The notes beneath the pieces are model-generated. The model was not told the origin of the DNA and did not search any database. It saw only the letters and a program-made list of their open reading frames with translations. Below, in pieces: positions 12,482 to 36,820 of a stretch of DNA of 64,000 bases. The DNA is from Bacteroidota bacterium. Its GTDB lineage: Bacteria > Bacteroidota > Bacteroidia > B-17B0 > Aurantibacillaceae. Position numbers and translations under genes: made by a program. The stretch covers positions 1 through 64,000 of the forward strand of contig JANYGK010000028.1 of NCBI GenBank assembly GCA_025362395.1, written 5' to 3'. Every line of letters starts with the position of its first letter. Position 1 is the stretch's first letter.

Positions 12482-12516
12482 CAGCCCGAAATACAAAGAA
12501 CGGTTCTTTATTTCAT

Positions 12517-12590: not shown

Positions 12591-12625
12591 CCTTCTAATT
12601 TCGGAAAAACTACTCATAGCCTACG

Positions 12626-13900: not shown

Positions 13901-13945
13901 TGTCAATTATATTGCATAGTGCAATACAAATTTATAATAATTATA

Positions 13946-18438: not shown

Positions 18439-18439
18439 A

Positions 18440-19030: not shown

Positions 19031-19043
19031 GTTTATTTTTTAT

Positions 19044-20762: not shown

Positions 20763-20764
20763 AT

Positions 20765-21337
20765 TTATTTGTTAGTTAAGTATTTATAATGATAGATTTT
20801 ATCGTTTATTACACTTTCAGTTTTTAAATGGCCTGAGTCATGTAATTCCTTTGCCCATGCATAATCTTCGCCGAGCCAAATATTAGGAAACCTCACCTTC
20901 ACTGCATGTGCCCGCTTCATTGGAGTTATGTGGTTAGGATGCCTTAAATAATACGGACTTCCATCTGCTTTGGGTTTATTAATATATGGATGTCCTAAAC
21001 GAATTTCCCAATCCGCTTCATGTATTCCGTCTGTTGACATTGTGCCATTTATTCCAATAACATCGTTACCCTGCAAGCATGCATCAAAAATTTTTTTAAT
21101 TGAGTGGTCGAAAATATCATCATCATCATCAATAAACCAAGTATAAACTCCTTTTGATTTTTCGAGTAACGAATTTCTTTTCTCTCCGGTTGAAACTTCC
21201 CTGCCGCGAACGTCTGAGATAATTTCTATCATTTCTAAATATTCATCAGGACATGTAGAAATAATTCTATTCCTAATGTGCTTAAAATGCTCTACTCTTT
21301 CCGGGAGGGTTGGTATTAATATGGATAGTAAAATCAT
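20765..21337 (-). CDS. Glycosyltransferase family 2 protein
   Basis: 190 residues from the ATG at 21337 (MILLSILIPTLPERVEHF). This start gives a 4-bp overlap with the previous gene's stop, as is usual in this cassette; an earlier in-frame start would bury 54 bp in that gene. GT-A features: IPTLPER at the start of strand 1, YTWFIDDDDDIFDHSI (about residues 80-95, five consecutive Asp at the metal site), and WLGEDYAWAKELHDSG near the catalytic-base position. Confidence 0.85.
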   Translation of the reverse strand: MILLSILIPTLPERVEHFKHIRNRIISTCPDEYLEMIEIISDVRGREVSTGEKRNSLLEKSKGVYTWFIDDDDDIFDHSIKKIFDACLQGNDVIGINGTMSTDGIHEADWEIRLGHPYINKPKADGSPYYLRHPNHITPMKRAHAVKVRFPNIWLGEDYAWAKELHDSGHLKTESVINDKIYHYKYLTNK

Positions 21338-21984
21338 AACGGAAAACCCTCCGCCATGTGCTTTGCAAATAAAGATTTCCCTTGATCCCAATTAGCCTCC
21401 GAACGAATATATGTTTCATCTCTTTCCGCTAAACCTAAAGAGCAGTGTTCGTGTGGAAATTTTAATTGAGGAGCCTCTTTTAACCAGCAATTATTAGTAA
21501 CAGTCCAAAACAGGTGTTCATCAACAAACATTGATTTATATTCGGGATGCCAAAAGTAACCTAGTTTTTCGTACAGTTTTCGGTTCATTATTGGAATAGT
21601 CAAAACGGGAACGTTGAATTTTTGCAAACAATCATCAACCTTTAAAAGCATCGGAGTGCTATTATTCATCTGTTCATTAATTAACACATCCCATTCATCA
21701 GGGCATTTAAAATCATCTGATAAATAAATCAATATATCGCCCGTCGCTACTTTTGCCGCATGATTAGTAGCTTCAACAACGCAAGTATTATTATTTACAA
21801 TACCGCAGGAACCTACGACATCACCAAATAACCTAGCGTATTCATTAATCGAATTATCAGATTCGTCAAGCGATAAAACATGTTCTATGTTTTCAGGAAA
21901 CCAGGCTTTGCTAATCCAATAGTCATAAGCAGCTTTTGCTTTTTCGGGTCTTTGGCGGGATGGATGTATTAGGCTAATTTTCAT
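21334..21984 (-). CDS. Glycosyltransferase-like protein (GT-A fold)
   Basis: 216 residues from the ATG at 21984 (MKISLIHPSRQRPEKAKAA). Likely metal-binding residues are in GDILIYLSDDFKCPDEWD (about residues 90-107), with a conserved-looking MFVDEHLFWTV (about 157-167) for the acceptor site. It overlaps the upstream gene by 11 bp and the downstream gene by 4 bp. Donor and acceptor are not predictable. Confidence 0.75.
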   Translation of the reverse strand: MKISLIHPSRQRPEKAKAAYDYWISKAWFPENIEHVLSLDESDNSINEYARLFGDVVGSCGIVNNNTCVVEATNHAAKVATGDILIYLSDDFKCPDEWDVLINEQMNNSTPMLLKVDDCLQKFNVPVLTIPIMNRKLYEKLGYFWHPEYKSMFVDEHLFWTVTNNCWLKEAPQLKFPHEHCSLGLAERDETYIRSEANWDQGKSLFAKHMAEGFPL

Positions 21985-22633
21985 TTTTAAAATAGTTACT
22001 ATAAAATTCAAAGCTTTCTATATCCATTAAATCACTCAATATTTTTTTATCAGCATCCGACTCATTAAACCTATGCAATTTATTAGTATGTCCTGTGCCC
22101 CCACACTTCCCTACACCATGTTTAATGCCCATGCAAATATTTTTTTCGGGATGGAAAGTACATCCTTTTAATGTTTCCCATAAATGCATATCTGTATATG
22201 GTTCATTATCGGCGCACCACTCAAAATTAAGATCAGGTTTAATTAAAGTACTCATTGCGCTCGATCTCGACATGTGCCACATGGTGAAGTGGGCAAATAA
22301 TTTAATGTGATAATATATTGTGTAGTCTGTTCCAAAAATATCTGGACGCCCACTTGAGAACCATGCCTTTGTAATGATTTCTAAATAGTCGGGCGAATAC
22401 CATTCATCATTTTCAATCAAAGCTATTACGTCAAGATCCTTTCCTCTTAATAAATCATAACCTATTCGGTATCGCTGGGTAATATCAACATCATCTGAAA
22501 TCGCTTGATAATTTACAACCTCAATGCATGCGGGCTGAATTGTTTGTTGCTTAATTAACCGTAAACAGTTTTCTAAAAACAACGGCCTGTCATTTCTGTC
22601 CGGGATTATTACTCCAATTTTGAGATTTTGCAT
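21974..22633 (-). CDS. Glycosyltransferase family 2-like protein, first gene of the cassette
   Basis: 219 residues from the ATG at 22633 (MQNLKIGVIIPDRNDRPLF). A GT2 core is seen: VIIPDRN, then VIALIENDEWYSPDYL (about residues 72-87) as the nucleotide-binding/DxD region. Its first four codons lie inside the 70-bp repeat that also supplies a TATATTTG promoter box on this strand, so the cassette appears to be driven from that repeat. A start at 22657 is possible but would place the start nearly on the -7 box. Confidence 0.8.
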   Translation of the reverse strand: MQNLKIGVIIPDRNDRPLFLENCLRLIKQQTIQPACIEVVNYQAISDDVDITQRYRIGYDLLRGKDLDVIALIENDEWYSPDYLEIITKAWFSSGRPDIFGTDYTIYYHIKLFAHFTMWHMSRSSAMSTLIKPDLNFEWCADNEPYTDMHLWETLKGCTFHPEKNICMGIKHGVGKCGGTGHTNKLHRFNESDADKKILSDLMDIESFEFYSNYFKNEN

Positions 22634-22692
22634 GTTTTGGTCATACAAATATAACATTTTATTTCATTGTGTAATATTTTTACAATCAAAAT
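22623..22692. repeat. 70-bp repeat, copy A (divergent promoter region)
   Basis: Identical over 70 bp to 36751-36820. It lies between the minus-strand cassette and the sheath gene. On the minus strand it carries TATATTTG (22652-22645) about 12 bp before the cassette's ATG, and the codons for MQNL. On the plus strand it carries an AT-rich leader with the imperfect palindrome GTAATATTTTTAC ahead of the sheath ATG. Confidence 0.9.
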
Positions 22693-22700
22693 ATTTTAAA

Positions 22701-24224
22701 ATGGGTTCAATTTCAAATGCGGTTTTAGATACTTATATTTCAAGGGTAGTCGGATATCAACTTACAACCGGGAATTTTCAAACAGTAACCCCTAATTTAC
22801 CTCAAAGAATTGCAGTGTTAGCGGAAGCTAACGAGTCCAATCAAGCAACGTTAGATCTTACTCCTTTTCAAATTACTTCAGCACAACAAGCAGGCAGTCG
22901 TTATGGTTACGGTTCCCCTATTTATAACATTTCTAGAATCCTAATCCCTTTAAATGGCGGCGGCGTTAGCGGTATTCCTGTATGGATTTATCCGCAAGCT
23001 AAAGCATCAGGCGCAACTTTTAAATCTATTGGTATAACACCTACAGGTGTGGCAATAGATAATGGAACACATTCTGTAATTATTGCAGGTCGTGGAGGCT
23101 TAGACGGACAGGCTTATGATATAAACATTAAAGCCGGCGACACGAGAATTGAAATTACGGCAAAAATATCAGATACAATTAACGCAGTTTTAGGATGCCC
23201 TGTAACAGCTACAGACGATGATTACACTAACAATATAAAAAGCAAATGGGCAGGATTAACTGCCAATGACCTTAGCGTTAGCGTTAATACTAACGGAAAT
23301 TCTTTAGGGATTACTTACACTATCTCAAATATTACTTCGGGATCAGGAACGCCTAGCGTTCAACCCGCATTAAATTTATTTGGTAACGATTGGAATACAA
23401 TTGTTGTAAACGGATACGGAACCGTTTCAAGCGTAATGACTGCTTTAGAGCAGTTTAACGGTAGGCCCGATGCAACTAATCCAACAGGTAGATATGTTGG
23501 AATTATTATGAAACCATTCATCGCAATTACAGGAACGACTATTGACGATCCAAGCTCAATTTCGGACGCAAGATTAAACGACTTAACCGTCGCATTAGCG
23601 CCCGCACCACTTTCGGCAGGACTTCCAATGGAAGCAGCCGCAAACATGACCGTATTAGCCGCCTTAGTTTCTCAAAACACGCCGAACTTAGACGTTGCAG
23701 GAAATAATTATCCGGATATGCCAACCCCTGCATTAATCGGATCTATGGCATCTTATACTAACAGAAATCTTTTTGTAAATAAAGGTTGCTCAACTGTTGA
23801 TTTAGTTGGCGGGCAATATGTAGTCCAGGATTTTATTACAACCTATCATAAGGTAGGCGAAAATCCTCCTCAATTTAGGTATTTCAGAAACATTATGCTG
23901 GATTTAAATATTCGATTCAGTTATTATTTACTTGAGCAGATAAATGTAGTAGATCATCAAATTGCGGCAGATACAGATACTGTAACTGCTCCAAAAATAA
24001 TTAAACCAAAACAATGGTTGCAGATATTAAACGCATTTGCTGACCAATTAGGATCAAGGGGGCTTATTGTTGATGTTGCGTTTATGCAGGCGTCAATTAA
24101 GGTTGGCTTAAGTATCAATAATCCTGACAGATTAGAAACGTATTTTAAATATAAACGTTCAGGGTTCACTAGGGTATCAAGCACTACTGCGGAAGCAGGT
24201 TTTAATTTCGGAACACTAAACTAA
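22701..24224 (+). CDS. Tail sheath protein (Mu gpL-like)
   Basis: 507 residues from the ATG at 22701, 8 bp after the 70-bp repeat. It forms the contractile outer tube. The start MGSISNAVLDTYISRVVGYQ and the segment RIAVLAEANESNQATLDLTP (about residues 34-53) fit Mu-type sheath proteins. The C-terminal polymerisation domain contains FRYFRNIMLDLNIRFSYYLLEQ and RLETYFKYKRSGFTRV. A tube gene follows 14 bp downstream, the usual order. The longer in-frame start at 22620 would need translation through the repeat and is rejected. Confidence 0.92.
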   Translation: MGSISNAVLDTYISRVVGYQLTTGNFQTVTPNLPQRIAVLAEANESNQATLDLTPFQITSAQQAGSRYGYGSPIYNISRILIPLNGGGVSGIPVWIYPQAKASGATFKSIGITPTGVAIDNGTHSVIIAGRGGLDGQAYDINIKAGDTRIEITAKISDTINAVLGCPVTATDDDYTNNIKSKWAGLTANDLSVSVNTNGNSLGITYTISNITSGSGTPSVQPALNLFGNDWNTIVVNGYGTVSSVMTALEQFNGRPDATNPTGRYVGIIMKPFIAITGTTIDDPSSISDARLNDLTVALAPAPLSAGLPMEAAANMTVLAALVSQNTPNLDVAGNNYPDMPTPALIGSMASYTNRNLFVNKGCSTVDLVGGQYVVQDFITTYHKVGENPPQFRYFRNIMLDLNIRFSYYLLEQINVVDHQIAADTDTVTAPKIIKPKQWLQILNAFADQLGSRGLIVDVAFMQASIKVGLSINNPDRLETYFKYKRSGFTRVSSTTAEAGFNFGTLN

Positions 24225-24238
24225 AAAAATAAAATAAG

Positions 24239-24646
24239 ATGCCGGTAGGTGGAGACATAACAGAAATTTCATACAACCATCCAACAATTGGAAGCGGTGT
24301 ATTATATCCAAAAGCAGCCGAAGATTCTACTTTTGACTTAGGTGGTTTCCGAGGAAACGATGATGCCAACATGGTTGACGGCGGCGGTAGAAATATACGC
24401 CAGCTAAATCAGGTAAGGTGGTCATTTGAAGGCACTGTATCTTGGGACATGAATATTGATAACGAACTTCAAAAAGTTACTGATATGTCTAAAGACCCAC
24501 AGGAAGCTGATTGGACTTTTACGCATATAAATGGTACCGTTTGGGGTGGCAAAGGTGCGCCTGTTGGCGATGTTCAAGGTAATGGAAACGGTTCAACATT
24601 TACATTAAAGGCGTCCGGTGGAAAAGCACTTAAAAAAATAATTTAA
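24239..24646 (+). CDS. Tail tube protein (Mu gpM-like)
   Basis: 135 residues, the correct size for a myovirus inner tube subunit. Features include an N-terminal GGDITEISYNHPTIGSGVLY, a glycine-rich loop (FRGNDDANMVDGGGRNI) and a C-terminal beta segment (NGNGSTFTLKASGG). It lies between sheath and chaperone genes as in Mu. It polymerises inside the sheath to form the DNA conduit. Confidence 0.88.
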   Translation: MPVGGDITEISYNHPTIGSGVLYPKAAEDSTFDLGGFRGNDDANMVDGGGRNIRQLNQVRWSFEGTVSWDMNIDNELQKVTDMSKDPQEADWTFTHINGTVWGGKGAPVGDVQGNGNGSTFTLKASGGKALKKII

Positions 24647-24647
24647 T

Positions 24648-25040
24648 ATGGAAGCTATCAGTAAAGAGGTTGCAATTATAGAAGTTGAAAAGTGGCTAGA
24701 CTTTAAAAAAGTGAAACCTAAAAAAAGAGAGGCATATAAAGACGCCATCGAAAGCATAGCTGATGCAATGTGTGAGGGGTCTCTAGTGCTGAATGAAGAT
24801 TTTAGCCTAACACAAACTTTAGATTTTCCGATCGGAGCAGAAAAGCAATTTAAGTCCTTAGACTTTAAGCCTCGCGTTGATGTATCAACTATACAAACTC
24901 AAATGAATGGAGTGACGGGCGCAGATGCTAGAATTTTAGGGACTATTGCGGCCTTAACCGATAAGGCAAAGGGTATAATTTCAAAAATGGATACAGAAGA
25001 TTATTCGGTAGCAAGTTCAGTAGCGATTTTTTTTCTATAA
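24648..25040 (+). CDS. Tail assembly chaperone, short (zero-frame) form
   Basis: 130 residues, starting 1 bp after the tube gene. It is a small acidic helical protein (EKWLDFKKVKPKKREAYKDAI; LGTIAALTDKAKGIISKMD). The position between tube and tape measure identifies it as the chaperone that coats the tape measure during tail assembly. The last sense codons are ATT TTT TTT CTA, and the frame closes at TAA 25038-25040. A -1 slip there produces the longer form. Confidence 0.8.
   Translation: MEAISKEVAIIEVEKWLDFKKVKPKKREAYKDAIESIADAMCEGSLVLNEDFSLTQTLDFPIGAEKQFKSLDFKPRVDVSTIQTQMNGVTGADARILGTIAALTDKAKGIISKMDTEDYSVASSVAIFFL
25028..25034 (+). promoter_or_regulatory. Programmed -1 frameshift slippery site
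   Basis: T TTT TTT (25028-25034) in the zero frame ATT TTT TTT CTA TAA is a perfect X-XXY-YYZ heptamer, one codon before the stop. No strong downstream stem is obvious. Confidence 0.8.
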
Positions 25041-25207
25041 ATGAAGACGGGTTAGATGTAATGATTAAGCAAATCGTTCTTGAATTGAAATGGCTACCTA
25101 AAGATATTGGTAGCCTTTTTGTTGATGAGATAGACTATTTGGGCATCGAATACTGGTACAATGAAGTTTACAAAATGCTAAAAAAAGTAATGCCTAAGGA
25201 TAAATAA
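25034..25207 (+). CDS. Tail assembly chaperone, -1 frame extension (GT-type)
   Basis: A 57-residue extension reached from the zero frame by slipping at 25028-25034: SINEDGLDVMIKQIVLELKW continues to MLKKVMPKDK. The fusion would have 186 residues (129 zero-frame plus 57). There is no ATG at the beginning of this frame; the only candidate start, ATG 25061, would make a shorter fragment. The tryptophan- and tyrosine-rich pattern (WLPKDIGSLF, IEYWYNEVYKM) fits the T domain that binds the tape measure. The tape-measure gene starts 3 bp later. Confidence 0.75.
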   Translation, partial: SINEDGLDVMIKQIVLELKWLPKDIGSLFVDEIDYLGIEYWYNEVYKMLKKVMPKDK

Positions 25208-25209
25208 CA

Positions 25210-27237
25210 ATGGCTTCGTTTACAATACCATCCATATACACTGCAGTCGATAGAACATCTTCTGTACTGTCTACTATAGGTAGAGCAAATGCATCATTAG
25301 CAAACAGGATAGATACTGTTACGTCCCGTAGTGAACGATTATTTAGACGGGTTACTCCTGGGTTAAGTGATATAAGCAAACAGTTTTTAAATGTAGCAAG
25401 CACTGCCGCTATTGCCGGTGCGGCCATATCATTAGGTAAATTCTCTATAGGATCGATTATTGAAAACGAAAAAGCAGTGGCTTCTTTCAGGACTATTGTT
25501 TCTGATTTAAATGATACAGATTTTTCAAAGTATGAAACCGCTATTAATCAAGTGGCTCGAAAATCAAAAGTCAGCTCCATTGATGTTGCTCAATCATTTG
25601 AAAAAATTGCCGGGCTTAATGCAAAATTTGCTGAAACAGCACAAGGTATATCCGCCGTTACTAATGCAACCATTACATTAAGCAGGGCTAGCAGGGACGA
25701 CTTAGGTAAAAGCGCAGAAAATTTAGTGGGCATTATGAACCAGTTTTCATTAGGCGCAACACAGGCAAATAGAGTCATTAATGTATTGGCCGCAGGACAG
25801 GCTGTTGGCGCTTCAAGCATTACACAAACAGCCGAATCATTTACAATGTTTGGTTCTGTTGCGTCAGGTGCAAACGTAACGCTAGAGCAATCAGTTGCAT
25901 TAATTGAAACACTTGGCAAATACTCTTTATTCGGAAGCGAAGCTGGTACGCAATTAAAAGGTACGCTGACCCATTTACAAAAAGCGGGTTTAGGTTATGC
26001 TTCTGGGCAATTCAAAATAAATGACGCATTAGAACAGGCAAAAAAGAAGTTGGATACTTTAAAAACTGCAAAAGAAAAAGATGCCTACATAACAAAAACA
26101 TTTGGCTTAATTAACCTTGGTGCAGGGCGCATTTTATTAAACAACATTGATACATTTAAAGATTTCACAAAAGGCGTTACGGGTACATCTGAAGCGCAAA
26201 AAGCAGCGGCAATAAACTCAGCTACGCTTGGGGCTAAAATCGACAAATTGAAGGCCTCGTGGATTAATATGCTAACAGGTAGCGATAAAGCATCTGCGGG
26301 CTTAAAAAAAGCTAAAAGTATTATTGACTATTTAATCAATAATATGGATGAAATAGTTTCTGTTGGCATTTCTGTTATTAAGTTTTTCGCAATATGGAAA
26401 GCAACAATTTTAGTAGGAAGGGTTGCGCTGGGAGCATATAATATTGTGTTAGGAATTAGTTCCGCGTTGCAGGCAACAGCTTCGGTAGCGGTAGGAGGAA
26501 GTACAATAGCAATGGCGGCTTACGAATCAACATTGTGGTTAGCTGAAGCAGCGCAGTTGGCATTTAATGTAGCCGCATCGGCAAATCCTTTAGGTTTATT
26601 AATTATAGGGATTGCCGGAGTTTCAAAATTTTTATATGATTTATACAATAATTGGAATACGGTAACTACTCTATTTACGACTGGTATGGCCGGAATTAAA
26701 AGAAGTTTTGTTGGCACTTGGTTGACAATTGAGGATTCTTTTATGGGAATGGCTGATAGGATTACTTTAAGCTGGAAGGCATTGCAGATGTCTTTAGGAA
26801 TTATTTCAGCCAAAGAATTTAAGACTTCATCAGATAAAATTGAAATAGAGCAAGCAAAGAGAGATAAAGCAATTAAAAATAACACATTATATAACGCAGC
26901 TTCAGATAAAAAAGAGGGTAGGCAAATAATGGGGGCTTTTATTGGTGATGCTAAAAAAAATGAAAGGCAGAATTTCAAGAATACCAATTTCGCTATTGCT
27001 GAGAAGTTCATAAACCAAACCGAATCAACAACTCCAACAAGTGATGCTCCAACCTCGGCAAAACAATTGATAAATCCAAAAGAGGCCCAGGCGAATGCTA
27101 CAGCTAATCAGTTAGCAAATAACCAACCTGCTATTAACCTAATAGTTAATAATGCGTTACCGGGAACTACGGTAACGGGAGGAAGTAAAGGCGTCAAATC
27201 AAGCATTGTCCCATCCACAACTTCAACTCAACAATAA
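25210..27237 (+). CDS. Tail tape-measure protein (TP901 type)
   Basis: 675 residues; its length sets tail length. The TP901 core covers about residues 85-300 (VSSIDVAQSFEKIAGLNAKF, SAENLVGIMNQFSLGATQAN, TQTAESFTMFGSVASGANVT, GKYSLFGSEAGTQLKGTLTH). Hydrophobic segments that could cross a membrane on DNA injection lie at about 380-480 (VGISVIKFFAIWKATILVGR, SANPLGLLIIGIAGVSKFLY). A Thr/Ala/Gln-rich tail ends the protein. The stop overlaps the next ATG (TAATG). Confidence 0.93.
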   Translation: MASFTIPSIYTAVDRTSSVLSTIGRANASLANRIDTVTSRSERLFRRVTPGLSDISKQFLNVASTAAIAGAAISLGKFSIGSIIENEKAVASFRTIVSDLNDTDFSKYETAINQVARKSKVSSIDVAQSFEKIAGLNAKFAETAQGISAVTNATITLSRASRDDLGKSAENLVGIMNQFSLGATQANRVINVLAAGQAVGASSITQTAESFTMFGSVASGANVTLEQSVALIETLGKYSLFGSEAGTQLKGTLTHLQKAGLGYASGQFKINDALEQAKKKLDTLKTAKEKDAYITKTFGLINLGAGRILLNNIDTFKDFTKGVTGTSEAQKAAAINSATLGAKIDKLKASWINMLTGSDKASAGLKKAKSIIDYLINNMDEIVSVGISVIKFFAIWKATILVGRVALGAYNIVLGISSALQATASVAVGGSTIAMAAYESTLWLAEAAQLAFNVAASANPLGLLIIGIAGVSKFLYDLYNNWNTVTTLFTTGMAGIKRSFVGTWLTIEDSFMGMADRITLSWKALQMSLGIISAKEFKTSSDKIEIEQAKRDKAIKNNTLYNAASDKKEGRQIMGAFIGDAKKNERQNFKNTNFAIAEKFINQTESTTPTSDAPTSAKQLINPKEAQANATANQLANNQPAINLIVNNALPGTTVTGGSKGVKSSIVPSTTSTQQ

Positions 27238-27728
27238 TGCAAACATTTGATTTAGCAATTATAGAAACATTGAATGGAGGCGACTTTCAATTACAAGGAA
27301 ACGACTTGGCGGTTGTGAATAGTATTGAAAACATGATTTACTTAGCGCTGTTTGGAGGCAACATTGAAGAATCCACACAACAATCATTCATTCAAGCTCA
27401 ATCTTTTGATTACTGGGGAAATTCATTTTTAACGCCTGATCAACAATTTAATTCTGATACAGAGAGAACATTAAATTCTACGCCTCTAACTACATCAGGA
27501 AGAGTGATTATCGAAAACGCCATTAAAAAAGATCTTGATTTTTTTAAAGTTTTTGGAGCGACTGTAACGGTTTCGGTTTCAATTATTGCCACTGATAAAT
27601 TAAGTGTAAATATAAAAGTAATGTTTCCGAATCAACAAGCTAGTATGACTATTATCAATTTCAGAAAAGCGGCATCTGCAGATGGCGATTTCTTTATATT
27701 GGATTTTAACGACGATTTTTTCTTATGA
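27237..27728 (+). CDS. Baseplate wedge protein, Mu gp46/gp25-like
   Basis: 163 residues. The start QTFDLAIIETLNGGDFQLQG and NDLAVVNSIENMIYLALFGG resembles the gp25/gp46 family, which seeds sheath assembly on the baseplate. It precedes the baseplate J gene with a 4-bp ATGA overlap, the standard gene pair. Confidence 0.8.
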   Translation: MQTFDLAIIETLNGGDFQLQGNDLAVVNSIENMIYLALFGGNIEESTQQSFIQAQSFDYWGNSFLTPDQQFNSDTERTLNSTPLTTSGRVIIENAIKKDLDFFKVFGATVTVSVSIIATDKLSVNIKVMFPNQQASMTIINFRKAASADGDFFILDFNDDFFL

Positions 27729-28900
27729 TAAATATACCTACAATTAATCAATTATATACCTCTATAGTTTCTGATCTAGAGGCGCAGTACGGCGTTACAA
27801 TTTCATTGGTTGGAAAAGTAGCGTTAAGGGCGGAAGCGCTGGTTCAGGCCGGTAAATTAAAACTTTATTATTTGGCTATTGGCTTACTTCAAAAAAATAT
27901 TTTTGTTGATACGGCAGATAGCGAAAGCATTGGGGGTACATTGGAAAGATTTGGCCGCGTTAAGTTGGGAAGAAATCCTTACCCCGCTGTTTCCGGAAAA
28001 TATACGATACAAGTTACAGGCACAGTTGGCGGAATAATCAAAGCAAGTACAACTTTTAAAAGTGATGATACGTCTTTAAGCCCCGGATTTCTATTTGTTT
28101 TAGATAACGATTATACATTAGTTTCAGCTATTGACAGCATAACGCTTAGAGCACTAACCGCCGGAGAAGAAAGTAAAATAAATATTAACAATACTTTAAC
28201 GGCGACCGCACCAATTGCATTAGTAAATAGTTCTGTTTTAGTTACAGCTATATCCGTTTCGCCTCTGGCGGCAGAAGATTTAGAAGCTTACAGGCTTGCC
28301 ATCATAAACTCTTATAGGTTAGAGCCTAAAGGAGGCGCGGCAACAGACTATAGATTGTGGTCTCAGGATGTGCAAGGGGTAAGATATGTGTATCCGTATG
28401 CTAAGAGTAATGCGCCATGCGAGATAAATTTATTTGTAGAGGCGACTGTATTAGATTCAATAGACGGAAAGGGTACACCAACCGCTCAGTTATTATTAGA
28501 TGTTGAACACGCCGTAGAGTTCGATCCAAATTTAAATTTACCCACTTTGGAAAGAGGCAGAAGGCCATTGCAGGTTGTTGTCAATTATTTACCCGTTACC
28601 ATTTTAAACGTAGATATAAATATAACTTCCTTCACTGGTATTACTGTTGCTCAAAAAGCATTACTATTAACGGCGATAACCAATACCGTTAATGCTATCA
28701 GGCCTTTTGTAGATGCCGCAGATGTATTAGTTAACAAGAATGATATTATTGATAGCAATAAAATAGTAGCAACAATTATATCTCAAATTCCAGGCTCTGT
28801 ATTTGGCGCAGTTACAATTAAAATTAACTCAGTTACAACTCCAAATTATCAATTTGCTTTAGGAAATATTGCTTACTTAAATTCCGTCACATATATTTAA
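27725..28900 (+). CDS. Baseplate J-like protein (Mu gp47-like)
   Basis: 391 residues, a normal length. The conserved centre is AEDLEAYRLAIINSYRLEPKGG, then DYRLWSQDVQGVRYVYPYAK (about residues 182-222). The C-terminal region has RRPLQVVVNYLPVTILNVDINIT and QIPGSVFGAVTIKIN. It joins the wedge of the contractile baseplate. It overlaps the next gene by 1 bp (TAATG). Confidence 0.92.
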   Translation: MINIPTINQLYTSIVSDLEAQYGVTISLVGKVALRAEALVQAGKLKLYYLAIGLLQKNIFVDTADSESIGGTLERFGRVKLGRNPYPAVSGKYTIQVTGTVGGIIKASTTFKSDDTSLSPGFLFVLDNDYTLVSAIDSITLRALTAGEESKININNTLTATAPIALVNSSVLVTAISVSPLAAEDLEAYRLAIINSYRLEPKGGAATDYRLWSQDVQGVRYVYPYAKSNAPCEINLFVEATVLDSIDGKGTPTAQLLLDVEHAVEFDPNLNLPTLERGRRPLQVVVNYLPVTILNVDINITSFTGITVAQKALLLTAITNTVNAIRPFVDAADVLVNKNDIIDSNKIVATIISQIPGSVFGAVTIKINSVTTPNYQFALGNIAYLNSVTYI

Positions 28901-29607
28901 TGAGTTTTTACGACAAAATAGTTAGTTTATCAAAGCAGTTCTACCCTAGCGGAAGGGCTTTTAAAATGCCAAGTCAAGGAACTTTAGAAAACCTTCATCT
29001 TGCATTAGCTGAAAGCGAAAACCAAGCATATTCAGATGCAGTTTCTATTTTAGATAGTATACTTCCCGATAATGCAAATTTCACAACGGATGATTGTACG
29101 GATTGGGAAAGACGACTAGGTTTAATAACAAACCCCTTAACCACAACATCAGCAAGGAAAGCGGCGATAATTCAAAAACTGAATCAACCCGGATTAAACC
29201 CTGCGAAAGGACATTATTTGTATCTGCAAGAGCAATTGCAATTAGCGGGGTTTAATGTTTATGTATACGAAAATAAGTTTCCTGTTTACGGTGGCGGATA
29301 CACTACCAGAACACCCTTTGCTGTGAGTGGAGTTAACCAAACCACAACGCTCCAACATGGCAATTTTAATCACGGGTTATTTTCTCACGGATTAGCCTTT
29401 ACAAATAAAATAGCAAATTACATCAATGATTCAAAAGATTTGTATTTTGGATTAGGAGGAACGTATAAATGCACTTTTTTTATAGGCGGCTCCCCTTTGG
29501 GGTCATTTGCGAATATACCGACCTCAAGGCATGATGAATTTAGGCAACTCGTTTTAAAAACAAAACAAATACAAGACATAGCTTTAACTTTTATAAATTA
29601 TATATAA
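28900..29607 (+). CDS. Baseplate protein, Mu gp48 (DUF2313)-like
   Basis: 235 residues. LSKQFYPSGRAFKMPSQGTL near the start and FTTDDCTDWERRLGLITNPL (about residues 65-84) match the gp48/DUF2313 family, which connects wedge and fibre. The C-terminal half carries a glycine-rich beta part and FYDKIV start. It overlaps the fibre gene by 1 bp. Confidence 0.85.
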   Translation: MSFYDKIVSLSKQFYPSGRAFKMPSQGTLENLHLALAESENQAYSDAVSILDSILPDNANFTTDDCTDWERRLGLITNPLTTTSARKAAIIQKLNQPGLNPAKGHYLYLQEQLQLAGFNVYVYENKFPVYGGGYTTRTPFAVSGVNQTTTLQHGNFNHGLFSHGLAFTNKIANYINDSKDLYFGLGGTYKCTFFIGGSPLGSFANIPTSRHDEFRQLVLKTKQIQDIALTFINYI

Positions 29608-30524
29608 TGTCAATAGGATCAGATAATTACCCTAACGGGGCCGCAATCACAACAGATTACCCGCACGGCGGCATTAAAGATGATACAGGAGTAGGTGATG
29701 GAACTCCGGTTAACAAATTAGTATACGATGATATACATCAGACATTTAGAAAAATTCTTTTACTTTCAGCAATTACCCCCAATGGATTACCGGATAACGT
29801 CACAAATGGTTATCAATATAATAATGCAATGGACGCGTTGTATAAAAAATTCACCGGCGTTAAATACGTAACCGGGGTTGCTTCAGTTACATTAACATCC
29901 GCGGATTACGGAAAGCTAGTTGTAGTAGATTCAAGTGCCGGGCAGGTAGATGTTATATTGCCGGCCTCTGTTAATTTAAGGGATGGAGATGCATTTACTG
30001 TATTTAATAATGACATTAATTTAGTTTTGGTTAGGCGCACAGTCCCAAATGGTTTTGGAATAAATCAAAATTATTCAACCGGAATATCACCGTTAATTAT
30101 TCAACTTCCTTCTGTTTATGATTTTGGGGAATTTGTTTTAAGTAAAGGATCTGGAACAGCGGGTACTTGGTACGCGGCAAATTTAAGAGCATCAACCGCT
30201 CCATTATGGGTTTCGCCTCCTACACTTCTTAACTCATGGACTAACTCAGCATCTCCCTTTAAGTATTATGTTTCACCTAATGGACATGTAAGTTTTGAAG
30301 GCCTTGTAGTAAATTCGTCAAGCGGTTCAACTGTTTTTTTTACATTGCCCTTTGCGCCGAGTTATCAAAGAAATATACCGGTGCTTGTGAATGACGGAAC
30401 TATAACACTGAAAATGGCGCAACTAACAATAGACACATCAGGAAATTGCTCTATAACAAAAGGCGCAACCGCTACGGCAAACAATGGGATAGTTTTAGAC
30501 GGAGTAAGTTTTTGGTTATCATAA
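29607..30524 (+). CDS. Tail fibre or collar-type protein
   Basis: 305 residues. The N-terminal part (NYPNGAAITTDYPHGGIKDD, TFRKILLLSAITPNGLPDNV) should attach to the baseplate. The middle has a jelly-roll-like repeat, and the C-terminus (SPNGHVSFEGLVVNSSSGST, FAPSYQRNIPVLVNDG) is like receptor-binding fibre tips. It directly follows the gp48-like gene, as fibre genes do in Mu and P2. The receptor is unknown. Confidence 0.75.
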   Translation: MSIGSDNYPNGAAITTDYPHGGIKDDTGVGDGTPVNKLVYDDIHQTFRKILLLSAITPNGLPDNVTNGYQYNNAMDALYKKFTGVKYVTGVASVTLTSADYGKLVVVDSSAGQVDVILPASVNLRDGDAFTVFNNDINLVLVRRTVPNGFGINQNYSTGISPLIIQLPSVYDFGEFVLSKGSGTAGTWYAANLRASTAPLWVSPPTLLNSWTNSASPFKYYVSPNGHVSFEGLVVNSSSGSTVFFTLPFAPSYQRNIPVLVNDGTITLKMAQLTIDTSGNCSITKGATATANNGIVLDGVSFWLS

Positions 30525-30525
30525 C

Positions 30526-31263
30526 ATGCAGCTTAATATAAATAGTAGTGCTGTAGTGGCACACACAAACAGATTAGAACGACTGAGAATATCAGTCCTG
30601 CCGAACGCTATTCGCAACACTTTGAATAATGCCGCCTATGATGTAAAAACAAATACGATGCCTGAAAGCGCAAAAAATAATTTTGTAAACAGGTCGCCTA
30701 ACTTTTTTAAAGTAACAAGTAAGTTTGATAAAGCAACAGGAAATAATATAAATTCAATGAGATCTACCGTTGGGTTTATTACAGGAAAAGTAAAAAATGA
30801 TTTTTCTGTTAAGGATTTGGAGCAACAAGAAAATAGCGGCACTATAAAAAAACGCTCTTTTATCCCTTTAAAATCTGCCCGTACGGGAAATAGCAATAAT
30901 AGACTTATACGGTCAAACGCAAGGCTTTCAGGTATAGACAATATTGTTAATGCGAGAAATCAAAAGGGTAACACTAAAGCTGCCCGCTTTGTTAATGCTA
31001 TCTTAAAGGCAGGAGATGGTGGTTTTGTTTTGGGAAGCAACAATAATGGTGAAAATATTTTATGGAAGGTTAACTCTATAAAATCGAATTTAAAAAGTAA
31101 AAGATTTAAGCCTAGGTTAACGCCGTTATATGATTATTCACCAAAAAGATCCGTACATGTAAAGGCTACAAATTTTATGAAAGATGCATCATTAAAAACG
31201 GGCGAAAAATTGGAGCAAATGTTTAATAAAGAAGTTGAACGACAAATAGCAAAATTAAAATGA
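30526..31263 (+). CDS. Phage structural protein, possibly tail-completion or baseplate
   Basis: 245 residues, very basic. The N-terminal part (AIRNTLNNAAYDVKTNTMPE) and NFFKVTSKFDKATGNNINSM resemble HK97-gp10/virion-morphogenesis proteins but without a decisive motif. It overlaps the circularisation-like gene by 4 bp, so it is part of the tail operon. In Mu no gene of this type is found here. Confidence 0.5.
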   Translation: MQLNINSSAVVAHTNRLERLRISVLPNAIRNTLNNAAYDVKTNTMPESAKNNFVNRSPNFFKVTSKFDKATGNNINSMRSTVGFITGKVKNDFSVKDLEQQENSGTIKKRSFIPLKSARTGNSNNRLIRSNARLSGIDNIVNARNQKGNTKAARFVNAILKAGDGGFVLGSNNNGENILWKVNSIKSNLKSKRFKPRLTPLYDYSPKRSVHVKATNFMKDASLKTGEKLEQMFNKEVERQIAKLK

Positions 31264-32480
31264 GTTGGTTAGATAAATTATCAAATGATTTAATTATTAC
31301 TACCGGGGATTCAAAGCAATATAAACCCTTATGGAAAAATCCTTCAAAATCAACAGGCTATAACCATGCTGAATTTACATTTCCTAATTTGACAGGTTCT
31401 TTAGTTAAAAGAGGAACGCCAATTGGAAGAAGATTTCCTCTTGAATTGTATTTTGATGGCACTGATCATTTAGATAAATCTTCTGAGTTTGAAAAATCCG
31501 CTAGTGATAAACGCGCCTGGAGAATAGAACACCCATATTATGGATTGTTATTTGTTCAGCCTACTGAAATTAATTTTGATAATATAGGTGATAATGTCAC
31601 AAAAATAACCACTGTAGTAATTGAAACAATAACAGAAGATAAGCCTTCCGTAAAAACTGACCCAATAGATTCAATTAAATTAACCAAAGTTCAATTAGAT
31701 GGAGTAGCTGAGCAAAATATAACTGCCACCATTCAACCTACAAACATTAATACATTAACGGATGTAAATAAAAAAGCCTTTAACCTGTCAGTCCCTATTA
31801 TTAAACTACCTACGGAAGCAGAAGGTTTTTATAACACATTTAATCAAGCTCAATCTGCTATAAATACAGCTACAGCAACACCAATATTGGCTATGCGAGC
31901 CGTTATAGCCGCACTATCATATCCTGCAAATTTTCAAGTTAGTGTTCAAACAAGGATCAATACTTTAAAGAGCACATTTGATAATTTACGAGCGACGGTA
32001 GCCGGCATACCAAATGTGGCGGGTAAGCAAATTTATCAAGTCCAAGGCGCAGCGATTCTAAGCGCTATGTGTATAGGGGCCTCTACTCCTGTAGATAAAG
32101 ATTACACAAACAGTAAAAGTGTTTTAGGTATTACAAGTATTCTTTCCAGTAGTTACAATCAGTACTTAACAGACCTAGATTCAATTCAATCGCTAAATGG
32201 CGGAAATATAACAAGTTTTATTCCTTCGCCCGATACAATCAACTTATTAGACGGCTTATTGAATTTTACAATAGCAAATCTTTATAATATTGCTTTAAGT
32301 TCACGAACAGAACGCTCAATAATTACTGAAAAAGACACCAATATAATTTTATTAACACAGCGTTTTTATGGATTAGATCCAAATGATGATAATATAAATG
32401 AATTAATCTCGAATAACAATTGGAGTTTAAGCCAAGTGTTGCAAATTAAAAAAAATACAAAAGTTGTTTATTATATATAA
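31260..32480 (+). CDS. DNA circularisation protein N-like (Mu gp43) baseplate component
   Basis: 406 residues. The N-terminal domain (YKPLWKNPSKSTGYNHAEFT, KRGTPIGRRFPLELYFDG, DHLDKSSEFEKSASDKRAW) resembles the Mu N / 'DNA circulation' N-terminal domain, a LysM-bearing baseplate hub-joining protein. The remainder is helical. The next gene is the gpP-like hub, which is the Mu order (43-44-45). Confidence 0.75.
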   Translation: MSWLDKLSNDLIITTGDSKQYKPLWKNPSKSTGYNHAEFTFPNLTGSLVKRGTPIGRRFPLELYFDGTDHLDKSSEFEKSASDKRAWRIEHPYYGLLFVQPTEINFDNIGDNVTKITTVVIETITEDKPSVKTDPIDSIKLTKVQLDGVAEQNITATIQPTNINTLTDVNKKAFNLSVPIIKLPTEAEGFYNTFNQAQSAINTATATPILAMRAVIAALSYPANFQVSVQTRINTLKSTFDNLRATVAGIPNVAGKQIYQVQGAAILSAMCIGASTPVDKDYTNSKSVLGITSILSSSYNQYLTDLDSIQSLNGGNITSFIPSPDTINLLDGLLNFTIANLYNIALSSRTERSIITEKDTNIILLTQRFYGLDPNDDNINELISNNNWSLSQVLQIKKNTKVVYYI

Positions 32481-33577
32481 TGAATTTAAAAATTAATCAT
32501 AGGATTGGCGACGGCATTGTTGATGTAACTTACTTCAATGATTTTGAAATTGACTTAAAATTTGATTCAGTGGCCTCTACGTTCTCATTCCAAGCATTGT
32601 TTGATCCGTATAACCGTTCTCATGCTGAATTATTTTGTGTAAGTCATTTTCACGAGGCCACGCTTGAGCATGAAGGGGAAACGCTTATTAGCGGTTTTTT
32701 ATTAGGAGAAGAATTTAAGTCAAGTGCAGTAGAAGAATTAACACACTTTGCGGGATATTCAAAGCCTGGCGTTTTTGAAGATTGTGAAATTCCTCCGACA
32801 TTATATCCGCTTCAAAGTGACGGATTGTCTTTAGCTGAAATTGCAAGGAAAATAGCAGCGCCTTTTCATTTAAATGTCATTATTGATCCGTTAGTTTCTA
32901 ATGCAATGAATAAACCTATTGATAAAAGTACAGCATCGGAATCTCAAAACATAAAATCTTATTTAACTGAAATCGCTACACAGCGTAATATTATCATGAC
33001 GCACGATGAATTAGGAAATTTGGTTTTTACGAAAGCAAAAACCAACTTAAAGCCTATTTGCCATTTTGAGGATGGACTTACCGGAACGTCATTTAGGATG
33101 TCTTTTTCAGGACAAGGAATACATAGCCATATAACGGTTATGAAGCAAGCAAGTGAAGATGGAGGTAACGCGGGGGAGTACACTATTCAAAACCCCTATT
33201 GTCCGGTAAGATATGTTTACAGGCCAAAAGTTGTTACGCAGAGCAGTGGGACAGATATTACAACGGAAGAGTTTGCAAAACAACAACTAGCTGCTGAGTT
33301 GAAAAATATAAAATTTATTATTAATACTGATCGTTGGAAGATTGATGGTAAAATAATAAGGCCAAACAACATTATAACTATCTTTGCCCCTAAGATTTAT
33401 GTATATAAAAAAATTGAATTATTTATAGAGAGTGTTAAACTAAAAGGAAATTCAACAGAAACAACCGCTGAATTAACGTGTGTTTTGCCGTGCGTGTATG
33501 ATGGGTCAGCCGTTAAAAATGTTTTTGTCGATGCTCATGATAATTTCCCGCGCTTTAAATATCCAAAACAAAACTGA
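32480..33577 (+). CDS. Baseplate hub protein (Mu gpP/gp44-like)
   Basis: 365 residues, forming the central hub ring beneath the tube. The first domain (DFEIDLKFDSVASTFSFQAL, FHEATLEHEGETLISGFLLG) has the hub beta-barrel pattern, and GYSKPGVFEDCEIPPTLYPL followed by IARKIAAPFHLNVII (about residues 96-138) is the gpD/gp44 signature. It overlaps its neighbours by 1 bp on each side. Confidence 0.85.
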   Translation: MNLKINHRIGDGIVDVTYFNDFEIDLKFDSVASTFSFQALFDPYNRSHAELFCVSHFHEATLEHEGETLISGFLLGEEFKSSAVEELTHFAGYSKPGVFEDCEIPPTLYPLQSDGLSLAEIARKIAAPFHLNVIIDPLVSNAMNKPIDKSTASESQNIKSYLTEIATQRNIIMTHDELGNLVFTKAKTNLKPICHFEDGLTGTSFRMSFSGQGIHSHITVMKQASEDGGNAGEYTIQNPYCPVRYVYRPKVVTQSSGTDITTEEFAKQQLAAELKNIKFIINTDRWKIDGKIIRPNNIITIFAPKIYVYKKIELFIESVKLKGNSTETTAELTCVLPCVYDGSAVKNVFVDAHDNFPRFKYPKQN

Positions 33578-34107
33578 TGAATTATTTCGTTAAAACTATA
33601 TCCGCATCCGTTGACAGCATGAGCAGGCGTGTCATTAAGTTTTTACGCTTTGGAAAGTCGGATGTTCAAACCGGAATTGAAGCATTAGCGTATGGACTTG
33701 ATAGCAATCCTATAAAAGATATGGTTGCCGTTTATGCTGAAACTTCCGAGAAAGGAAAAGTGGCAATTGTTGGCTACCTTAATAAAAATCAAAAAGCACA
33801 ACCCGGAGAATTTAGGACGTTTTGCACAGATAGCCAAGGAGTAGAAAAGTTTTATACTTGGATGAAATCAGACGGTACAATAGAAATAGGGGGTAATGTT
33901 AATTTTGCTGTGAAATATAACGAATTAGTAATTGAGTTTAATAAAATTAAAACAGATTTCAATAGCTTAGTGAGTATATTTAACGCGCATACACATATAC
34001 TTGCTTTATCATCAGGCACTGGCACGGCAGCGCCTTCAATAACTCAGGGCACTGTAAATACAAGTGATATTACACAAACAAAAAATTCTAAAATAAAAAC
34101 AATATGA
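33577..34107 (+). CDS. Baseplate spike (Mu gp45/gpV-like)
   Basis: 176 residues. The OB-like N-terminal part (FGKSDVQTGIEALAYGLDSN, PGEFRTFCTDSQGVEKFYTW) is followed by a coiled or triple-beta segment (EFNKIKTDFNSLVSIF). A terminal HxH motif, NAHTHILALSSGTG (about residues 137-150), matches the apical iron-binding HxH of membrane-piercing spikes such as P2 gpV. It is followed by the W-like gene in a 4-bp overlap. Confidence 0.85.
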   Translation: MNYFVKTISASVDSMSRRVIKFLRFGKSDVQTGIEALAYGLDSNPIKDMVAVYAETSEKGKVAIVGYLNKNQKAQPGEFRTFCTDSQGVEKFYTWMKSDGTIEIGGNVNFAVKYNELVIEFNKIKTDFNSLVSIFNAHTHILALSSGTGTAAPSITQGTVNTSDITQTKNSKIKTI

Positions 34108-34418
34108 TTCGATATTTAAGTATAGATGCAAATCTTCAAAGTTGCGAAGACATAAAGTCCAAAATTGTTAAGATAGACGCAATTATATCTGCGCTAATGG
34201 ATACTGCTTTAAAGGTTGTACTAGCCGGAGATACCGTAGAATATACTTTAGATACAGGGCAAACAAAGATTTCAAAAGTACTTTCAACGCCTGATAGTGT
34301 AATGAAAGCCATTAAGGATTTTGAAACATTGCGTGTTATGTATTTAAATAAAATTTCATCAAGAGTTGTAAGAATAGTTGACAGTAAAAATATTTTAAAT
34401 GGATTTTATGGCAGATAA
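34104..34418 (+). CDS. gpW-like head-tail joining protein (tentative)
   Basis: 104 residues. A short beta pair (DTVEYTLDTGQTKISKVL) and helices on either side (VMKAIKDFETLRVMYLNKIS) fit the gpW fold. It sits directly upstream of the portal gene, where W lies in lambda. The overlap with the portal frame is 20 bp if the first ATG is used, or 11 bp from the ATG at 34408. Confidence 0.55.
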   Translation: MIRYLSIDANLQSCEDIKSKIVKIDAIISALMDTALKVVLAGDTVEYTLDTGQTKISKVLSTPDSVMKAIKDFETLRVMYLNKISSRVVRIVDSKNILNGFYGR

Positions 34419-36033
34419 AAAAATAAAATTAATCGATAGAGTAAAAGCTTTTATTAAGCCTGAGACATTAAAACAACCCGTGGCTGATTTTTCTACCAGT
34501 GGAGAATCTCGCCCTTTAATGGTGCTGTCATTTACGGGAGAAAAGAATCTTGGCGAAATGGGGCCGGCTATTGATTACCGTTTAGATTATAGTACTTTAA
34601 GGATACGTTCGTGGCAATCACAATTGGAAAGTGATATTTGCAAAACTGTCATAAAAAGATTTGTGACATGGGTAGTTGGAGATGGTTTAAAGCTTCAATC
34701 TGAGCCATCTGATGTAGTTTTAAAAAGTGAAGGTGTAACGATAAACAAGCAAGCTTTTTCAGATGCTGTAGAGGCTCGTTTTGGAATATTTAAGAAATCA
34801 AAAACGAGCGACTATTCAGAAATGAATAACATTGATTTAATTGCTGCGGCAGCTTTTAAAAACGCCATTGTTGGCGGAGACGTTTTAGTAATACAAAGGT
34901 TTGATGGAGAAAATGTAAATATTCAACTTGTTGACGGATGCCATGTGCAATCCCCTACACTTGGTTCTGAATGGTTTCCTACTGCGCTGGCTAATGGCTC
35001 ATCTATTATTAACGGTATTGAGATTTCAGAAAAAGGAAAGCATATTGCTTTTTACGTAAGAATTTATTCCGCGAACAGAACTTTTTTACGATACGACAGA
35101 ATACCCGCACGAAGCAACGAAAGCGGTTTGCAAACAGCCTTTATGGTTTATGGATCCAAACACCGGCTTGATAACATTAGGGGCCTTCCTTTATTAGCTG
35201 CTTGCTTAGAAACTGCTAAGAAAATGGAGCGCTATAAAGAGGCTGTTTTAGGAAGCGCAGAGGAAATATCAAAATTCATTTACCAAGTAGTGCATGAAGC
35301 ATACTCCGATGGATCAAATCCGTTAGGAGATAGATTGATGGAAGCCAGCGGTTTTGAAACTGATAAACTGGAAATTCCTAGAGATGTTGCTGGAAAAGAA
35401 ATTGCTAAAAGCGTGGCGGCATCTACAAATAAACAAGCTATAAATATGCCTGTAGGATCTAAATTAGAACCCGTCACAAATAATAACCCCATGATGTTTA
35501 GGGATTTCTATGCTGTTAATACAGACTTGCTTTGCGCTACCGTGGGCATTCCGCCAAATGTAGCAATGAGTAAGTATGATGATAGCTTTAGTGCATCCCG
35601 TGCAGCTATTAAAGATTGGGAACACACATTAATAATAGAACGCAATAATTTCGCTTTTGAATTTTACGAGCCCGTTTATGCTTTTTGGTTAGATATTGAG
35701 ATTTTAAAAAATAAAATACAGGCCCCTGGTTATGTTTTGGCTCGCAGACAAAATAACACAATGGCTTTAGATGCTTTTAGAAGAACGCGCTGGATAGGTT
35801 CACAGGTTCCTCATATAGATCCTGAAAAAGAAGTGATTGCAGAGCGTTTAAAATTGGGATCAAGTGCTGAAGCTATTCCGTTAACAACAGTGGAGGCTTC
35901 CACAGAGGCATTAAACGGTGGTGAATACAGTTCTAATGTTGTTCAGTTTGGGAAAGAATTATCTGTTTCAAAAAATAATGGAATTGAGATACCAATTAAG
36001 ACAACGGAGACAATAAGAAAAGGAGAGAAGTAA
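34399..36033 (+). CDS. Portal protein, lambda (gpB) family
   Basis: 544 residues (541 if started at the second ATG, 34408). It forms the dodecameric DNA gate of the head. Family features: RSWQSQLESDICKTVIKRFV (about residues 70-90), AAFKNAIVGGDVLVIQRFDG, LDNIRGLPLLAACLETAKKM (about 255-275) and VGIPPNVAMSKYDDSFSASR (about 385-405). It is followed by a hairpin over its stop codon, then by convergent minus-strand genes that separate it from the protease gene. Confidence 0.92.
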   Translation: MDFMADKKIKLIDRVKAFIKPETLKQPVADFSTSGESRPLMVLSFTGEKNLGEMGPAIDYRLDYSTLRIRSWQSQLESDICKTVIKRFVTWVVGDGLKLQSEPSDVVLKSEGVTINKQAFSDAVEARFGIFKKSKTSDYSEMNNIDLIAAAAFKNAIVGGDVLVIQRFDGENVNIQLVDGCHVQSPTLGSEWFPTALANGSSIINGIEISEKGKHIAFYVRIYSANRTFLRYDRIPARSNESGLQTAFMVYGSKHRLDNIRGLPLLAACLETAKKMERYKEAVLGSAEEISKFIYQVVHEAYSDGSNPLGDRLMEASGFETDKLEIPRDVAGKEIAKSVAASTNKQAINMPVGSKLEPVTNNNPMMFRDFYAVNTDLLCATVGIPPNVAMSKYDDSFSASRAAIKDWEHTLIIERNNFAFEFYEPVYAFWLDIEILKNKIQAPGYVLARRQNNTMALDAFRRTRWIGSQVPHIDPEKEVIAERLKLGSSAEAIPLTTVEASTEALNGGEYSSNVVQFGKELSVSKNNGIEIPIKTTETIRKGEK

Positions 36034-36044
36034 ATTCTCTCCTT
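36020..36044 (+). terminator. 10-bp perfect hairpin spanning the portal stop codon
   Basis: AAGGAGAGAA (36020-36029) pairs perfectly with TTCTCTCCTT (36035-36044); the 5-nt loop holds the TAA. There is no T tract, so it may act on mRNA decay or as a weak terminator. The 124-bp rest of the gap before 36169 contains a 5-bp hairpin but no gene. Confidence 0.55.
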
Positions 36045-36168
36045 ACGCCAACCCTTGACGCGTCGAACGTCCCCTCCTGTTTGATTCAAGTTTACAATAC
36101 TTAGCCTTAAAGCGGCCAACAACAGGTAGTAACCTACCCCTTACATATCAGGTTGATTAATATTTATT

Positions 36169-36381
36169 TTACAATAAATTAATTTCTTTTTTTGTTTCTG
36201 TTATCACTTCTTCAAAAGCATCCAATGTTTCTTTTGCGTTTAAGAAACAGGATTTTAAATGAGATAATTCAACTTCTTTAAAAGAAATTTCAGCCTCATA
36301 ATGTTTAACCGATTTTTGCGAAAAATCCAGCAGTCTTTCATTTGATTTCACATACATTTCAAGTTGCTCTTTATATTCCAT
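36169..36381 (-). CDS. Small coiled-coil protein
   Basis: 70 residues, almost entirely predicted coiled coil (ERLLDFSQKSVKHYEAEISF, HLKSCFLNAKETLDAFEEVI). It is the second gene of the short minus-strand insert between portal and protease genes; the first gene ends 72 bp upstream. The function is unknown. Confidence 0.55.
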   Translation of the reverse strand: MEYKEQLEMYVKSNERLLDFSQKSVKHYEAEISFKEVELSHLKSCFLNAKETLDAFEEVITETKKEINLL

Positions 36382-36453
36382 GTTATTTTATCGGATTTTA
36401 CGAAGCCCTTCCAGGGCTATTTTTTGTAATTTAAATTCATTATCCCAGAAAAG

Positions 36454-36750
36454 TTATTTACCTAATACTTCTATCGCGTTTCTGAAAATTTTCCCATAGA
36501 CGTCCTTTGAGCAGGGCATGCACATTTCAGCAATGGCAATAGCTTTTTCTCTTACGCTCGCATCTTCATTAACTAATATTTTTTTGAATGGAATCTTCAT
36601 GTGTTCTGGGTAAGAGTCACAAATCTTCCTTAGCTCAGGCTTCATAAAGTCGCAGACTTTCATACCTAGATTGTCAGCGATGTTGCTTATTTCTAAGTGT
36701 GTTTTATGGGAGATCCCATAAATTACTAAGTAGGGATTTCTTTTACTCAC
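36454..36750 (-). CDS. Small phage protein driven from the second 70-bp repeat
   Basis: 98 residues from GTG at 36750 (reads MSKRNPYLVIYGISHKTHLE). It contains CMPCS near the C-terminus (AIAEMCMPCSKDVYGKIF). The helical pattern NIADNLGMKVCDFMKPELRK could be a DNA-binding helix pair, but no family is recognised. The GTG overlaps the TGA of a 4-codon peptide (MQNL-stop) starting inside the repeat, which suggests coupled translation. Confidence 0.55.
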   Translation of the reverse strand: MSKRNPYLVIYGISHKTHLEISNIADNLGMKVCDFMKPELRKICDSYPEHMKIPFKKILVNEDASVREKAIAIAEMCMPCSKDVYGKIFRNAIEVLGK

Positions 36751-36820
36751 AGATTTTGCATGTTTTGGTCATACAAATATAACATTTTATTTCATTGTGT
36801 AATATTTTTACAATCAAAAT
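36751..36820. repeat. 70-bp repeat, copy B (divergent promoter region)
   Basis: An exact copy of 22623-22692. It again separates a minus-strand gene from a plus-strand structural gene. Here the plus-strand ATG (36819) begins in the last two bases of the repeat, and the minus-strand ATG inside the repeat opens only a 4-codon frame. Confidence 0.9.

Follow-up and report, generated by a model that had tools for sequence, protein, structure and literature searches.

Probable twin late promoters and a putative ribbon-helix-helix regulator in a Bacteroidota prophage

The late promoters served by two small phage proteins, Ogr of P2 and delta of P4, share a single upstream dyad, TGT-N12-ACA (PMC3931495). 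In phage Mu, a dimer of Mor binds two 5-bp inverted repeats within a 16-bp element centred at -43.5, thereby replacing the -35 box (PMC4390567), and C acts on four late promoters (PMC4461284). For the temperate myophages of the Bacteroidota, no described late-gene regulator was found in the literature searched. This report deals with a stretch of 64,000 nucleotides from a Bacteroidota bacterium (assembly GCA_025362395.1, contig JANYGK010000028.1, positions 1 to 64,000; hereafter the window), in which a perfect 70-bp repeat lies upstream of the tail sheath gene and again upstream of the head maturation protease gene of a prophage. Comparison with related phages suggests a pair of twin late promoters, one copy serving the tail operon and the other the head operon. 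Both would be governed by a small ribbon-helix-helix (RHH) protein that is probably both an activator of the late genes and a repressor of its own gene.

Paired sites upstream of two late operons

Within the window, the two copies of the repeat are identical across 70 bp, as an earlier reading made from the letters alone (the sequence-only reading) had stated, and their start-to-start distance of 14,128 bp bears out its figure of 14.1 kb. Similarity ends at the first base outside the 70 bp, the flanks being unrelated. The pair is the sole long non-tandem repeat within the window, the host genome (118 contigs, 4.08 Mb) holds exactly two copies of the element, and an exact search of IMG/VR for it returned no copy. 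The repeat and the genes around it are as follows.

22623-22692, plus strand: repeat copy 1 at the sheath site, candidate twin late-promoter element (exact repeat, unique pair in its own genome)
36751-36820, plus strand: repeat copy 2 at the protease site (exact repeat, unique pair in its own genome)
22701-24224, plus strand: tail sheath, opening the tail-baseplate-portal operon (22701-36033); phrog_165, E=6e-79
36819-37751, plus strand: head maturation protease, opening the head operon (protease-capsid-lysis, 36819-about 45145); phrog_53 etc.
36454-36750, minus strand: RHH regulator gene, 98 amino acids, GTG start, product predicted to bind both dyads (AlphaFold2 model; profile match)
17522-22633, minus strand: glycosyltransferase/methyltransferase cassette between terL and sheath, variable cargo adjoining copy 1

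About 100 related loci were gathered through sheath searches of IMG/VR and of species genomes, the protease sites of 41 relatives were obtained, and the 300 bp upstream of each sheath and protease start were compared; the pairing test set consisted of 37 distinct related phage genomes with both sites readable, the window included. Across this set, the DNA upstream of the sheath matches the DNA upstream of the protease in its own genome and not that of others, with a summed within-genome match of 1131 against at most 590 in 20,000 random re-pairings and an off-diagonal median of 9. A genome's own partner was the unique best match in 28 of the 37. The block common to both upstream regions usually spans 18-95 bp, examples being GATTATAGTCCCAAAGTTTGGGACTCTTTTTTT in G092 and TTCCGTTATCAACGGAACTTTTTTTA in G087, while in G093 the two sites share 95 identical bp and in G113 they are reverse complements of one another. 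The sequence-only reading had counted free divergence of the copies in related phages as evidence against itself, and this condition does not hold as stated: the sequence is free between phages, but both sites within a phage change together.

Five relatives with another gene order (G094, G098, G099, G100, G118) have neither an RHH gene nor paired sites, and in G108 both sites are kept, and perfect, though portal directly adjoins protease with no gene between. The sheath upstream region of one further relative (locus L092, genome G116) has no dyad and instead carries five tandem GAGTACCTAAC-like short repeats common to both of its sites; there, a gene for a two-copy RHH protein adjoins the protease.

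Dyad, spacer and -7 box

The aligned pairs show one order, namely a dyad of about 17 bp, 28 bp of spacer, a Bacteroidota-type -7 box and the start codon. The dyad is specific to the genome, and the spacer is exactly 28 bp long with a sequence that has usually diverged. Among 58 sites of RHH-bearing genomes, palindromy peaks at spacing 28, with 3.91 of 8 pairs against 2.31 elsewhere (standard deviation 0.27, maximum 3.02). When dyads were chosen blind to the -7 box in 16 genomes, box matches of at least 5/6 were located at 28 for 18 of the 29 sites and never for more than four at another offset, and among 42 held-out sheath sites, which were not used to derive the rule, 13 fit spacing 28 and no more than four any other spacing. 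In the Bacteroidota, the -7 box has the consensus TAnnTTTG and is located at -12 to -5 (PMC9723704); at +28 from the dyad, 48 sites give a TAnTTTTG-like logo in which two T positions are invariant, in agreement with a sigma-A -7 box of this phylum. Many late -7 boxes are nonetheless off consensus, and the spacer contains no conserved -33 box.

In 20 curated genomes with a diverged spacer, identity between the two sites is 90 % in the dyad and 76 % in the box, falling to 46 % in the spacer and 41 % in the left flank. Such a pattern reflects selection on a promoter and is no mere remnant of duplication. In the window, G093, G104 and G119, the two sites agree in the spacer as well, which points to recent block copying between sites in those genomes. 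Distance from the dyad is constant for plus-strand boxes, whereas minus-strand boxes, the regulator's own, lie at varied distances to its left or right. In the window and six long phage contigs, the exact dyad is confined to the two sites, the exception being the loose pattern TTCC-N9-GGAA of G120, which has one extra match; the same dyad stands at a fixed distance before two late promoters. In the window, the predicted elements are the following.

22630-22646, no strand: predicted regulator dyad GCATGTTTTGGTCATAC (GCATG-N7-CATAC), copy 1, followed by the -7 box after exactly 28 bp, the spacing found in relatives
36758-36774, no strand: predicted regulator dyad GCATGTTTTGGTCATAC, copy 2, same sequence as the copy 1 dyad
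22675-22682, plus strand: -7 box TATTTTTA of the sheath promoter, +28 from the dyad, TAnnTTTG consensus (PMC9723704); predicted transcription start about 22687
36803-36810, plus strand: -7 box TATTTTTA of the protease promoter, +28 from the dyad; start predicted near 36815, the ATG (36819) following four bases later
22646-22653, minus strand: -7 box TATATTTG of the glycosyltransferase cassette, motif on the minus strand; predicted start about 22641, inside the dyad
36774-36781, minus strand: -7 box TATATTTG of the RHH gene, motif on the minus strand; predicted start about 36769, inside the dyad

The presence of TATATTTG on the minus strand of each copy had been part of the sequence-only reading and is confirmed. 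The dyad was placed at 22630-22646 because the box at 22675 fixes its position, and its 17-mer has no other occurrence in the window with up to 4 mismatches allowed. A perfect dyad, GTACG-N7-CGTAC (GTACGTTTATACCGTAC), occupies the same place in the nearest relative (L004), and G096, whose regulator strand is nearly that of the window, has the site ATATGTTATTACCATAC. The protease ATG begins 12-17 bases downstream of the box's first base in 23 of 24 genomes, and the start codon is likewise very near the -7 box in the window (36803-36821); the protease transcript is predicted from this layout and should be leaderless or nearly so, with a leader of about four bases.

The RHH protein, the cassettes and the prophage

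A divergent small RHH gene is found at the protease site in 29 of the 37 distinct genomes, and its products, of 53-129 amino acids, make up one family, the proteins of five relatives having two RHH copies. In the AlphaFold2 model of the window protein (predicted local distance difference test score, pLDDT, 84), an extended strand is followed by helices at residues 15-28 and 32-46. The top structure matches, over residues 3-58, are all RHH proteins, those found in the fold search being VapB12 (best, Z 6.1), PutA, Arc, CopG and AmrZ; a Z of 6.1 can by itself reflect a common arrangement, and the match list is consistently RHH. Against a single-domain RHH family profile the window protein scores E=4.5e-20. 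Pfam matches are weak per protein (RHH_5, FitA RHH), and a PDB profile search returned the RHH chains 7e4j and 2k9i at E 0.003-0.004 together with a non-RHH ribosomal S17e chain at E 0.0018. The second half of the protein has no match to the RHH profile, and a separate model of that half is poor. The C-X2-C-X22-C-X4-C zinc finger of the Ogr family was also sought, and its cysteine pattern is absent from the regulator family alignment.

Regulator and site vary together. Between 22 genomes, identity in the six-residue strand tracks identity in the dyad half-site (r = 0.55, p = 1e-4; Mantel test), while the helices alone give r = 0.23 and the strand, given the helices, a partial correlation of r = 0.54. 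EIRIR goes with GTCCC, EIRIT with TT(A/C)CAT and YLVIYG with GYATG, and the strands YLVIYG of the window and YLAVYG of G096 go with related half-sites. As a correlation among related phages, this is what would be predicted of an RHH protein that reads DNA by its strand, and it agrees with an intertwined RHH dimer whose two strands would enter the DNA groove. The candidate rule that fused double-RHH proteins have asymmetric sites was not upheld, since G122 and G129 are double yet palindromic.

At copy 1, a minus-strand glycosyltransferase gene (21974-22633) faces the plus-strand sheath, and at copy 2 the minus-strand 98-codon open reading frame faces the protease. The sequence-only reading was thus correct about divergent genes and about the sheath and protease, but the copy-2 gene that it took for an insert is the resident regulator. 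Its ATG with the codons for MQNL is a start in use at copy 1, unlike copy 2, where ATG CAA AAT CTG TGA is terminated after four codons, the frame downstream of it beginning with a GTG just beyond the repeat, in a different frame from MQNL. At 36750-36761, MQNL-TGA overlaps the GTG start of the RHH gene (CTGTGAG), and translation of the regulator may be coupled to this four-codon leader.

The terL-sheath interval occupied by the cassette in the window is a gain-and-loss hotspot for sugar-modifying genes across the phage group. At least eight genomes lack a cassette, terL ending 76-262 bp before the sheath (G093, G110, G115, G120, G123, G126, G129, G131), and their paired sites are clear in most, with G110 and G123 weak when judged by match length only; in some other genomes the cassette genes lie on the plus strand. 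Because the sites persist in both situations, the site marks a place next to which cargo comes and goes and is not its vehicle, and the element does not travel with the cassettes.

The phage of the window is an integrated, temperate, contractile-tailed prophage. Its integrase and CI-like regulator (12731-14296) adjoin a tRNA-Lys gene, which lies directly before the integrase at 12516-12592 and is the probable attachment site, and host metabolic genes lie on either side of the prophage. Many relatives have a common gene order, which runs from terL and an optional cassette through sheath, tube, tape measure, baseplate, portal, a small open reading frame on the minus strand and protease to decoration and capsid; since this order is shared, the 14-kb tail-portal block of the window is in its proper place and the copy-2 minus-strand frame is a resident gene. 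Searches for relatives of the prophage in the same genus and family found none, and the window protease alone, as an IMG/VR query, gave no match. In the cultured Flavobacterium phages V156 and FL-1, the sheath and its upstream genes form one plus-strand run with gaps of a few bases, and split promoters therefore seem to be lacking. Elsewhere in the window, a 12-bp tandem repeat (AGAGCCATCGCC) occupies 58494-58632 within an early-region gene (57990-58664), five diverged 48-bp repeats at 5787-6052, in a gene lying on the host side of the prophage, encode a 16-residue repeat, and a 720-residue protein (41923-44085) with a K1-lyase C-terminal domain at its end is probably a tail spike that terminates in a self-cleaving chaperone.

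Proposed mechanism, alternatives and known systems

In the proposed mechanism, the RHH protein would bind both dyads through its beta-ribbon, as a dimer or a pair of dimers, at sites each made of the 17-bp dyad, the 28-bp spacer and a sigma-A -7 box just upstream of the gene that opens a virion operon. From a position at about -57 to -41, where a conserved -33 box is absent, the regulator would most likely recruit RNA polymerase to both late promoters simultaneously, while blocking its own promoter and, where present, that of the cassette. As the minus-strand starts at 22641 and 36769 are predicted to fall inside the dyad, the bound protein is expected to silence both the RHH gene and the glycosyltransferase cassette. 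A change in the regulator's strand would require both sites to change together, and in the window and some relatives a block of 57-95 bp has seemingly been copied from one site to the other, giving rise to the repeat observed.

The main rival keeps the same operators and the same protein but has it repress both late operons and itself, as an Arc-like second repressor that silences the virion genes in lysogeny; it is judged unlikely, though it is the alternative that carries the most weight. Arc and other known RHH proteins of phages repress, as do most characterised RHH proteins, eight of the 29 family members match the PHROG 'Arc-like repressor', and a gene divergent beside its own operator is the classic repressor layout. 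Other points also tell against the proposed activator and its sites. The window dyad is imperfect (4/8 pairs), and the dyads of the window, G089, G096, G108, G112 and G123 were placed by the 28-bp rule and are no test of it. In seven RHH genomes the ungapped match of the pair is low (10-15), in part owing to the retention of outer half-sites alone (G120, G129), and pairs are weak or differently built in the RHH genomes G105, G106, G116, G124, G126 and G127; in G108, no RHH gene could be detected across the 39.5 kb available. The AlphaFold model is a monomer, the Foldseek E-values are all above 0.2, and the Mantel test only partly removes shared ancestry. Activation is nevertheless favoured because the dyad is phased to the late box and not to the regulator's own, which is more typical of an activator that touches polymerase, because the spacer has no -33 element before late boxes that are often off consensus, and because Mor and Ogr offer precedents.

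Three further explanations concern the repeat itself. The sequence-only reading rightly saw promoter DNA between divergent genes, common to two late-operon sites and kept alike by some process, and it went on to propose a portable promoter, active in both directions, that would introduce or serve insert cassettes. Copy 1 does lie between cassette and sheath, and the minus-strand TATATTTG occurs in both copies; this device is nonetheless very improbable, since paired sites occur in cassette-less genomes (the 95-bp identity of G093 among them) and beside plus-strand cassette genes, the conserved spacing concerns the plus-strand box only, and the copy-2 gene is no cargo. The other suggestion of the sequence-only reading, a scar left as the 14-kb tail block moved, and a recent chance duplication both draw on the perfect 70-bp identity, which includes non-conserved spacer positions and does point to recent copying. 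Such copying would survive as the route by which the window copies became identical; as full explanations, chance duplication and the scar are contradicted by the terL-sheath-tail-portal-protease-capsid order, ancestral in the group and the same in many relatives, and by some 28 other lineages with paired sites of unrelated sequence, and can hardly be credited. A main function as intrinsic terminators or RNA elements, with hairpins and T runs shielding the late operons, is rejected with equal firmness: several dyads do combine a high GC content with a T run downstream (G087, G092, G093), but many sites lack a GC hairpin (the window, G089, G111, G117), terminators need not have the same sequence at both places, and the dyad varies in step with the RHH strand and keeps phase with the -7 box.

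If the proposed activation by the RHH protein is correct, the Bacteroidota temperate myophages would gain a late-gene regulator with a named protein and predicted start sites. The natural set of strands and sites makes the RHH recognition code directly testable, with some 30 differing RHH-operator pairs, and it shows a two-site regulator changing specificity, its sites wholly different between relatives and matched inside each genome. Chances are about even that these phages form a family in which an RHH protein activates the late genes at two paired promoters, the protein-site code differs by phage and block copying keeps the sites in step.

Set beside known systems, the locus shares parts with several. 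At lambda OR2, one bound CI protein activates one promoter and blocks the divergent one; this is an analogy only, as CI is a helix-turn-helix protein that controls lysogeny genes. In fold, the regulator resembles Arc, CopG, MetJ and AmrZ, of which Arc, CopG and AmrZ were matched in the fold search. Arc, however, represses early/ant control in P22, whereas the sites described here face virion operons, as a co-changing pair. Mor and C of Mu are helix-turn-helix proteins, and the present system differs from theirs in its RHH fold, in a predicted dyad centre near -49 and in its phylum. The likeness to P2 Ogr and P4 delta lies in a small phage protein and several late promoters sharing one upstream dyad in a temperate contractile-tailed phage; unlike the zinc-finger protein Ogr, the regulator here is an RHH protein, its sites number two, a spacer of 28 bp separates the dyad from a Bacteroidota -7 box, and the dyad varies by phage.

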